64,000 nucleotides of DNA from assembly GCF_039555335.1 (NCBI RefSeq), contig NC_092637.1:3188472-3252471 (forward strand), in the 5' to 3' direction. The stretch's first letter is position 1, and each line of letters begins with the position of its first letter. Below the pieces are notes generated by a model. The model was not told the DNA's origin, ran no database searches, and was given only the letters and a program-made list of their open reading frames with translations. This document shows positions 10,062 to 27,707 of this stretch, one piece after another. The position numbers were made by a program, and so were the translations under genes. This DNA comes from Amphiura filiformis (lineage: Eukaryota; Echinodermata; Ophiuroidea; Amphilepidida; Amphiuridae).

Positions 10062-10077
10062 ATGGCGCAACTGAATG
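10062..10077 (+). CDS. GIMAP-like gene, proposed first coding exon (16 nt)
   Basis: ATGGCGCAACTGAATG encodes MAQLN plus one base and is followed by the donor GTAAGC. The start context is CAAGATGG. It joins in phase to the exon at 11449, giving a short leader directly before the Walker-A block (MAQLN-ETRMVLIGRTGGGK), as in other GIMAPs. The exon is tiny and was chosen by phase, donor quality and position, so it is an inference. Confidence 0.5.
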
Positions 10078-13000
10078 GTAAGCATAGTTATGATAATATG
10101 CAGAGATGTATATTTGTAATATGCCTACTGATGAAGTCTCTTCAACAGCAGAGATTGTCAGCCAAAACATCCATGCACGAGATGTGCAGATGGTGATGAT
10201 TGTTTCAGTAACGTGGAAAGGATCAATTAACACTTGCTGGGATTTATTGTACTGTTGTAGATCTACAAATGCATTATAACGCAATGAAAGTACTCGTTAT
10301 ATATGTTTATTGGTTTTAAGAAAGCCGTTCTATGAGTTCCTGGCCAATTTATAAATGGAAATGCAAATTTAGTCTAGTAAGCCACGTCATTATTTTGATA
10401 TTTCCGATATTTCCGATTACGTACATGTGCATAAATGTGACCAAAATACGACGAATCTCGCCCTATTAGCAAAAAGAGGACTAAATCCCGTGTTGGTAAT
10501 AGGCCATTCCTCGTCCAATGCAATAACAACCAATATCGTAACCTCGGTCGTAACCAAAACAAATAGACGGCAACACTGCACACCGACATCGCCTGGCTAA
10601 TAATTACTTGGTACATCAGAGATACTAAAATAAATACCCGGGACCGATACACGTGAATGTGCTATGCACGATTTTGATATCAGACGAAAATATTTGGATA
10701 CCGGGGTAGAAAATGATGAATATCTCCCGTAAATGGTTTTGTCTAAAGAAACCAGAGCTGGTTCCTTACACTTGAATATACGTGTTGAACAGATATTATA
10801 GTCGTTAGCTAGCGTCTTGAAAAAGAACTGTGCGTCTTGAACTCAAAATCTGACCAAAATTTTGATTTTATATTGCGTTGGTCCTGTATGGACTACAGCG
10901 CGCAGGCTATAGCTGCACTCACTACTCCCGTGGAGGCAGTATAAGGTTCGATGGCCATTGACCGCAATGTCGTATACAAGCTTACTCGCACAGCGAGAAA
11001 TCAATTACCCCGGCTATTGTCAGTAGCCTTAGTCAGGTCACTCGGCTAATAATGCGTCTCATAAGGTCGGAACAAAATGGCTATGCGTGGCTGTGGATTC
11101 AACGGCGATTTCTGCCATGAAGATATCGGGGCGATGACACTGTGCGCTGTCTGGATGTTGTATAGAGTGCAATTTTCCAAGCCGTATTTTTGCCAGTTCA
11201 CTGCGTTGTCTTTTTAAAGACATTTCTTGTTCGCTCTCATGCAGTACCTTTTCCAAAAAAAGCACCCATGTTAAGCTACAATGTTAACCTTCGACCTTTA
11301 CATTAACATGTCGTAGATAGGCAAACTGAAATGTATATAAGATCTGATTCATCACCATAATACATGTAGCTCAAAATAAATGCGGAAAACAATGAGAATT
11401 GGCACTTCATCACCAGGCTTCATCATGTAAAATTGCTCTTTTTTACAGAAACACGTATGGTTTTGATAGGACGTACCGGAGGAGGTAAATCGTCAACAGG
11501 TAACATGATACTGGGGAAAAGGAAGGAAGATGAGGAGCGTTTTGATGACAAGACTAGTGGTTCATCTAAGACAAAACAGTGCAATTATATCAAGGAATTG
11601 GTTGGAAGGAAAATGATCCAAGTTGTTGATACACCTGGCCTCTTTGACACTGACGGAGAAACCAAAACCACAGATTCGCTGATGGAAATAGCCAAGTGCC
11701 TGATTGTTTCGTCTCCAGGACCTCACGCATTTCTGTTAGTTCTAAGCATTGGCCGCTTCACCCCAGAGATAGAAAAGAGTATTCGAAATCTTCGTGAAAC
11801 ATTTGGAGAAGATTTTTTGAGGTAAAATTTAAAAAAAAGTGTTAAAAAGTGTTTATATTTTTAAATGCGCTTTAATAAATACGCACGTGACCCATGGGCA
11901 CGACATACCAAGACCAGCAAGCGTGACCAAATCCTCATGCATTGACCACTATACAGAAAGGGATTGGAGCTATAGATAAATATCATCAAATTTAAGTATT
12001 AATTGAATTGCAAACTTGTTACACATTTTGCAATTACAATATTATCACAAAGTTGAACAAAATAGTTTTGCTGCACAGCAGTCTCACGTTGTGCCGCCTT
12101 TGCATTCAAATGTATAGGAAGGCCACTCGCTATATGTAGAAGGTCACTTCGAGACTTACTATAAGTTATAAGTCTATAAGTCTATAAGCTTGGAGGGACG
12201 CAGAGTCGATACTGAATTGGTCAATTTGGCACCCCTAAGGGTGGCGCCCGGGGCATGTTGCCCCCCCCCCCCTGCCCCCTAGTTACGCCGCTGAATGAAG
12301 GAATCGTTTTTATACCCTCCCTAAGTTCTTTCTTCTCAAAATCTTTTTGTTTTGGCCAAAAATAATCACATTTTCCAAAAATGATGCTTTCAGAAAAAAT
12401 TGCACTTTTCAACATCCTATACATGTAATGTACAAAAACATTATCAATATCAATGTTTTGATTGGTTTAATGGTGTTTTTGTTTTCTTTAATTTTTATGT
12501 ATACGATAACTTAGTCAACCATGCAATCATCCTGCATGTACGGGGTTTTTCTAGAAGGTTTTAATATTGAGCCGGTGTTTCAAAAATGGTAAAATCAATT
12601 TAGGAGTTACAAAACATTTCTTTGCATAACTTGAATTTAAAACCTGTGAATAGAGGAATAATTTTGCTACCCTACCAAAGATATCCCTTCTCAAAATCAT
12701 ATTTGCTTCGGTCAAAAATAATCATATTCAATATAAACTACGCAAAAAAAGTTTCTTTATGGTTAGGAAATTTACCCACTATTAAAATCTAGCGACCAAT
12801 TTTGTACGTTTGCTAAATAATCGCATGCGGGAGATTGTCCTGCGCATTTTGACACCTCAATCACTACCCTACGACACTCCTGAGAAAAGATATGAATGTT
12901 TAAGTAACACGAGGTCGAAAATGAAAATTGCAAAGAAGCCTATTCAATGGTTTTAGAGCTGATTTACTGATCCAAGACGGTGTCATTATTCCCGCCTTTT

Positions 13001-26409: not shown

Positions 26410-27039
26410 ATTGAATATATGAATACAAAAGCCACCTAAGTCCATACTTTGGCCAAATTGAGTTAAGCATGGGAAATTGTTGCTATACATAGGCCTGTCA
26501 TATGCATGAAAGAACAACTCAAATTCATACTCTATGTCTATTGGGCATGTGAAAAATAGCATGTATGAAAGAATCACCCAATTCCATGATTTGAGTCTTG
26601 TAACACATTGATTGAAATCCAGTATGTATAAAAGTCCACTTGTAACACATTCATTGCTAGAGAATAACTTTTGAACAAAAAATGGGTTTAATAAAGGAAA
26701 GTGTGTGGTTTATATTACATGGCAGAATGCTTATCAACATTATACATACCTGTGTGCTTTATTTTGTATTATCTTACGAGTGGTAATCTCATTCTAACAT
26801 TGTTGTCTTTGTATATGATTCAAAAAACCAAAATCCAAAGTCCAAAATTTAAAATGAACCCCACGAAGTCCCTGAAATGCTAATCGTCATACCTAATACA
26901 GGTTAATCCACTTATTTGCACGTAGAACTTGCCATATTGACCAGGTAAATCTAACTGAAGGAATTAAAATGATACACGGGTTTTTCTCTCAAAATAGCTT
27001 CGCATGGACTTAGGTGGCTTTTGTATTCATGTATTCAAT
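26410..27039. mobile_element. TIR element, unit 3
   Basis: Orthologous copy of 17395-18025. Confidence 0.75.
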
Positions 27040-27707
27040 TAATTCAGCAATCTGTGATTGTAATTGTATATCTTGCTTGGCTTAAATTGCAAAATAACAC
27101 TAATACAAATGGAAACCATTGCTTCTCTTTTGGTGTGATTCTTTCGACCTATTCTCTTAACATATAACTTTATGCTCATATAAAGCAATATAACCCCCAT
27201 TGATATACAAAAATCGTTAAAAATTAAGGTACTTTCCCGTAAAACCAAGGAGAACGTAACCCACTCGGGGACAATATTGTTCAAGGTTGCGCCGTCTCTG
27301 TTGATTTCGGCAGGACCTCTTTGTGAATCCAGTTAGCTTACCTGATGAAGCGAGCAAGTCGACGCCCCTCTGGATGTAGCTGTGTTAGCACCAGCAAATA
27401 GTTTTTTTGTTAGATTCCTAATTATAAATATCTACCAACCTGATGAATCTATTCATATACTTCATAGAGCTTTCTGTCATCTGATTGGTTATCTCAAGGA
27501 CAATATTGTTCAAGGTTGCGCCGCAGGCTTACAAAGAAACAATAGCAATCAAGCTTAAACTTTAAATTAGCACCCGATAGAGGGCAGGGCCTGAAGAATG
27601 AGGGAAATTATGGGTAAATATTTAACGGAATAAACTGCATAATCATATTATTTAGATTTATTCCGTTAAAAATCTTATTTTAACTTATCAAATTACTAGT
27701 TTTTATA

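Follow-up and report, generated by a model that had tools for sequence, protein, structure and literature searches.

A three-unit tandem array of the terminal exon of a GIMAP-type GTPase gene in the Amphiura filiformis assembly, probably reflecting a recent copy-number change with practically one C-terminus

The window analyzed here, a stretch of 64,000 nucleotides from Amphiura filiformis (NCBI RefSeq assembly GCF_039555335.1, contig NC_092637.1, positions 3,188,472 to 3,252,471; all coordinates below are those of the window), carries on its plus strand the predicted exons of a gene whose last exon occurs three times. Exon 1 (10062-10077, ATGGCGCAACTGAATG) comprises the ATG start codon with the first five codons (MAQLN) and one further base, is immediately followed by the GT donor GTAAGC, and joins in frame to the next exon when the window sequence is spliced; its ATG is the putative true start of the protein. 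The shared G-domain exon (11449-11821) is flanked by ACAG and GTAAAA, has its final codon cut after two bases, and carries the P-loop GRTGGGKSST, DTPG, and SSPGPHAFLLVLSIGRFT. The acceptors of the terminal exons are predicted at 15560, 20074, and 24574, and splicing from 11821 to each of them is in frame, which reproduces the products of 242, 379, and 365 residues that a previous sequence-only reading of this DNA had assigned to units 1, 2, and 3. As assembled, the coding part of the unit 1 exon (15560-15899) ends at a premature stop to give the 242-residue product, that of unit 2 (20074-20824) ends in a shifted 18-residue tail to give 379 residues, and that of unit 3 (24574-25282) encodes the second half of the G domain (RKDDLD), a stretch that by eye resembles a coiled coil, and a hydrophobic, glycine-rich tail, for 365 residues in all. 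An AATAAA lies just 3' of the normal stop in unit 2 (20824-20829) and unit 3 (25325-25330), and just 3' of the normal stop position in unit 1 (16313-16318), which on its own is weak evidence for a poly(A) site because AATAAA or ATTAAA is matched 14 times in every unit. Several candidate terminal exons are thus present in the sequence, each with an acceptor and a poly(A) signal and all in the same phase, as would be expected of alternative last exons. A tblastn search of the spliced protein against the window (E up to 10) returned only the known exons, with no second copy of the first half of the G domain and no further GIMAP gene; as this first half is single-copy in the window, neither unit 2 nor unit 3 is a complete gene. 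No RNA gene was found in the window, where there was no Rfam match at the gathering threshold and no tRNA.

The encoded protein is, by its domain and structure matches, a clear member of the GIMAP family, so that the previous designation of the gene as a GIMAP-type GTPase is borne out. The unit 3 form matches the Pfam AIG1 model (PF04548) over residues 8-222 with E = 5.5e-55 and 186.4 bits against a cut-off of 27; the general GTPase model MMR_HSR1 also exceeds its cut-off (28.9 vs. 21.9 bits), and three other models fall below theirs. The top solved-structure match of the spliced protein is GIMAP7 (E = 2e-40), and 8 of the 12 solved sequences found at E up to 0.001 are GIMAP7, 4, 1, 2 (four constructs), and 5, the remaining four being the plant protein T7I23.11 at E of about 1e-4. 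The GIMAP motifs, namely the P-loop, DTPG, the conserved box, and RKxDL, occur in order, and the protein aligns with GIMAP7 and GIMAP4 at the level of single residues. Neither of these alignments is interrupted by a gap at the splice junction, and both predicted splice sites gain support from this. C-terminal to the G domain, the translation shows a charged, coiled-coil-like stretch, recognized by eye only, and a hydrophobic tail whose best 19-residue Kyte-Doolittle mean is 1.95 (residues 338-356 of the 365-residue form). The repeated acceptor, AATAAA, and second half of the G domain proposed for each unit are thus present in all three, and the proposed coiled coil may correspond to the charged stretch. 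No relative was confirmed for the G exon among 72 pattern-matching stretches of prokaryote genomes, nor for the unit 3 exon among five stretches of viral contigs; these collections are not meant for animal DNA, and the result has no bearing on animals.

Self-BLAST and three-way alignment place the units at 14183-18696 (unit 1, 4514 bases), 18697-23206 (unit 2, 4510 bases), and 23207-27707 (unit 3, 4501 bases), all on the plus strand. This confirms the earlier layout of one G-domain exon ending in phase 2 and followed by three tandem 4.5-kb units. The units are contiguous and head-to-tail at 99.2-99.4% identity, with no gap between them and no N anywhere in the window; as the assembled letters stand, a three-unit repeat cannot be a product of chance. 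Both internal junctions read TTTTTATAAGGAG, and the native left flank of the array reads CACTAGG|AAGGAG, its native right flank TTTTTATA|TTCT, the two native ends having about one base of sequence in common at the junction. Each unit contains a GAAA microsatellite, to which no strand is assigned (16372-16522, 20883-21037, and 25384-25534). Far from the array, a stretch of 158 bases (44141-44298), perhaps a piece of a young mobile element, is 97-99% identical to part of each unit (18278-18434, 22792-22945, and 27293-27446).

The window holds other repeats as well, and its split genes and retroelement pieces give it the look of animal DNA. Part of intron 1 (10578-11154) has an inverted copy about 20 kb away at 30282-30854 (83% identity). 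The intron before unit 1 holds an element at 12737-13768 with inverted ends (a 219-base alignment at 93.6% identity), flanked by direct repeats of 90% identity (12220-12531 and 13772-14079), whose interior reads, by eye, like a remnant of a Tc1/mariner transposase. In the right half of the window, 29220-44248 aligns with 47009-61854 in roughly colinear pieces of about 75-92% identity at an offset of 17-19 kb, and on this alignment is a putative old, large tandem duplication. The same half contains two long imperfect palindromes (40311-41038 and 42526-43148), which align with their own reverse complements at about 80-83%, two tracts of 163-base tandem repeats that run in opposite directions (33575-34023 and 37252-37680), and a broken LINE-like element (50774-53301) with an endonuclease match below the Pfam cut-off (50774-51298) and reverse-transcriptase domains in two open reading frames (52206-53301).

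The manner in which the units differ bears directly upon how their three predicted C-termini should be read. In the three-way alignment, with a purine tract near 15467, 19980, and 24481 left out of the count, private substitutions number 10 in unit 1, none in unit 2, and one in unit 3; unit 1 differs from units 2 and 3 by 10 and 11 substitutions in 4.5 kb, or ~0.22-0.24%. On the same basis, units 2 and 3 are separated by a single substitution and six one-base indels in runs of four to seven identical bases, the remaining length changes between them concerning a run of G, the GAAA microsatellite, an inserted ACA, the purine tract, and a single base at the edge of the unit. The shorter run belongs to unit 2 at four of the six sites and to unit 3 at two, and unit 2 is alone in its run length at just two sites (p = 0.0013 to 0.002), the other two sites at which unit 2 is shortest being three-state. 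For comparison, the window's 39 remaining repeat pairs of 120 bases or more served as controls, some of which share a repeat family and hence lack independence. The 11 of them at 85% identity or above carry six short-homopolymer indels vs. 201 substitutions (Fisher p = 5e-8 against units 2 and 3), and all 39 carry 62 such indels vs. 1489 substitutions and 366 other indels (p = 3.8e-8), bearing in mind that pairs of lower identity have more indel events of every kind (the pair 43489/61063 has 77 substitutions and 41 events). The excess between units 2 and 3 persists when the columns of the purine tract are added as five substitutions (p = 4e-6 to 7e-6), and with the tract included the two units show six substitutions and 11 indel events (p = 1.9e-5 against 201 to 37 in the controls). 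Unit 1, compared with units 2 and 3, has seven short-homopolymer indels and 10 substitutions (p = 3e-6 to 6e-6). Homopolymers and microsatellites mutate rapidly in nature as well, and differences between very young copies appear at such sites before others; older repeats are for this reason an imperfect control. Judged by its spectrum, the difference between units 2 and 3 looks like uncorrected long-read consensus error. In PMC8812927, the residual errors of long-read-only bacterial assemblies are described as mostly errors of homopolymer length, and short-read alignment as unreliable in repeats.

Portions of the units do not differ at all. A 397-base block comprising the acceptor, the 82 intron bases preceding it, and the initial 315 bases of the exon is identical in all three, as is a 119-base block containing the AATAAA, and the coding stretch beyond those 315 bases holds two substitutions, both in unit 1, and two homopolymer indels. 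In the old frame both of them change the amino acid, one from R to S and the other from V to D, the latter placing an Asp in the hydrophobic tail. Substitutions private to unit 1 lie at 16144 and 16185 and distinguish this unit from the others, whereas units 2 and 3 differ inside the terminal exon at length sites only. Across the coding stretch of the three units, the divergence beyond homopolymer length that alternative last exons would be expected to have was not found. The early stop of unit 1 derives from an A5 at 15875-15879 where units 2 and 3 have A3; taken separately, the sequence after this indel is open in the old frame to the normal stop, and because of this, and with two coding substitutions only, decay of unit 1 is minimal. 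The tail of unit 2 derives from an A5 at 20764-20768, against A6 in units 1 and 3. This run reaches as far as the fourth codon from the end of the normal frame, after which the shifted frame continues into the 3' UTR and terminates at a stop sharing one base with the AATAAA. Both features rest on changes of one or two bases in the length of short A runs, and more probably reflect sequencing errors or a broken copy than designed differences. Most likely the tail of unit 2 is not real, given that it follows from an A-run length change between units whose difference spectrum resembles consensus error. The stop of unit 1 may be an error as well, or a true frameshift in a copy free of selection; a two-base expansion of so short a run, from A3 to A5, is less typical of read error.

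These observations allow a model of the locus to be proposed, one that we regard as probable, if far from assured: that of a recent tandem change in the copy number of the last exon, with practically one C-terminus, in which the tail of unit 2 is an error and the stop of unit 1 is either an error or a frameshift. According to this model, a 4.5-kb segment bearing the last exon of one invertebrate-type GIMAP gene would have been duplicated in tandem very recently. The first duplication may have joined two unrelated ends sharing about one base, by end-joining or replication slippage, and the third copy, whose junction is the same as the first, probably arose by unequal crossing-over. Every copy would encode practically the same C-terminus. 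The tail of unit 2 would represent a consensus error in the length of an A run, beyond repair by short-read polishing because it lies in a repeat, and the early stop of unit 1 would have arisen by an error of this type or by a genuine frameshift in a copy that is decaying. Transcripts in the cell would presumably take the proximal terminal exon, with a poly(A) site of its own, by default, the others seeing little or no use. Where splicing and 3' end formation are co-transcriptional, the most proximal terminal exon to have a functional poly(A) site would see the most use; this preference, together with acceptor, exon start, and poly(A) signal so alike that no local signal could regulate the choice of terminal exon, makes a regulated choice unlikely.

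It is possible, if on the whole unlikely, that the array is absent from the genome, and that the three units are a false duplication, made when a long-read assembler strung together haplotypes, or error-rich copies, of what is one 4.5-kb segment. Such stacking must be entertained because the substitution divergence of unit 1 is so low (~0.22-0.24%), and because a single substitution and changes in length are all that separate units 2 and 3. In many marine invertebrates, alleles usually differ by more than the value for unit 1. PMC9516828 describes false duplications that arise from haplotypes and read errors and that include duplicated exons; however, it also gives gaps between the copies as typical, and mentions one true allele-specific tandem duplication, whereas the three copies in the present array share the same clean junction with no gap between them. 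We consider it unlikely, too, that both the array and the frameshift of unit 1 are real, such that the proximal exon yields a tail-less protein from a pseudogenizing allele or a copy-number polymorphism. This scenario is a sub-case of the model preferred above, and the confidence given to each overlaps with that given to the other. The A5 itself and the V to D change in the hydrophobic tail, downstream of the frameshift, are consistent with it, and the position of the A3 to A5 change in the copy with 10 private substitutions tells against reading it as an error; the coding stretch, however, has two substitutions only, and the piece after the indel is open in the old frame. If the frameshift is real, then the duplication has mostly damaged the gene.

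A working alternative-last-exon system, in which one G-domain half feeds tail-less (242 residues), extended (379 residues), and regular (365 residues) forms of an immune GTPase, appears improbable. The three in-frame joins and the acceptor and AATAAA of each exon would permit it, loss of the hydrophobic tail would be expected to change membrane contact, and a parasitoid wasp serpin gene offers a precedent for several alternative C-terminal exons (PMC10513286). However, the acceptor, exon start, and poly(A) region are identical among the units, the C-terminal differences are homopolymer indels, the tail of unit 2 is mere readthrough of the 3' UTR up to the AATAAA, and both substitutions in the coding stretch of unit 1 are non-synonymous. 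The proposal that alternative 3' ends diversify an immune GTPase at this locus thus does not hold up well, and the reading of three functionally different C-termini from one gene is weak and not supported by the sequence, because what separates them is homopolymer length in near-identical copies. Similarly remote is the notion of a nascent system of this kind, by which a recent amplification of the last exon has made a switchable 3' end, with tail-less and tailed GTPases expressed from one promoter and the number of terminal exons varying between individuals.

Should the recent copy-number change that we favor be real, it would be a young case of a terminal exon duplicated in tandem within a rapidly changing family of immune genes, and the locus would lend itself to studying how splicing chooses among several terminal exons that are identical. 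Should it instead reflect assembly or consensus error, it would serve as a warning that near-identical tandem copies gather homopolymer frameshifts which mimic alternative C-termini. In either case, the protein resembles the GIMAP/IAN proteins (AIG1 family, PF04548) in its AIG1 domain, hydrophobic C-terminal tail, and, by eye, coiled-coil-like part; C-terminal extensions of coiled-coil or hydrophobic type are given as typical of vertebrate GIMAP members in PMC3723955. Among the literature matches listed, no title or abstract opening described a GIMAP locus with repeated terminal exons, which does not imply absence from print; those for GIMAP and exon duplication included a paper on the Nubian ibex. 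The gene differs from the GIMAP genes of snail and coral in that its G domain is split by an intron and its terminal exon repeated: most gene structures in the snail Biomphalaria have one exon per AIG1 domain (PMC7053062), and Acropora digitifera has three intronless GIMAP genes (PMC3723955). The same sources and PMC12373286 describe tandem clusters, copy-number change, and presence/absence variation between individuals for the family in snail, coral, and lancelet. Unlike these whole-gene arrays, the present one repeats only the last exon and its flanks. In having one constant 5' part and several C-terminal exons, the locus is also comparable to insect serpin genes such as PpSerpin-1. The alternative C-terminal exons of insect serpins are arranged in tandem, and Manduca serpin-1 reportedly has such exons. 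PpSerpin-1 has many of them, and the wasp protein acts against host immunity; 16 of 21 wasp serpin exons have clear orthologues in another wasp (PMC10513286). The units described here, in contrast, are near-identical and differ mainly by homopolymer length. In that they are near-identical stretches holding exons, they resemble the false duplications of assemblies treated in PMC9516828, but they depart from the typical case described there in being three copies with a clean, repeated junction and no gap.
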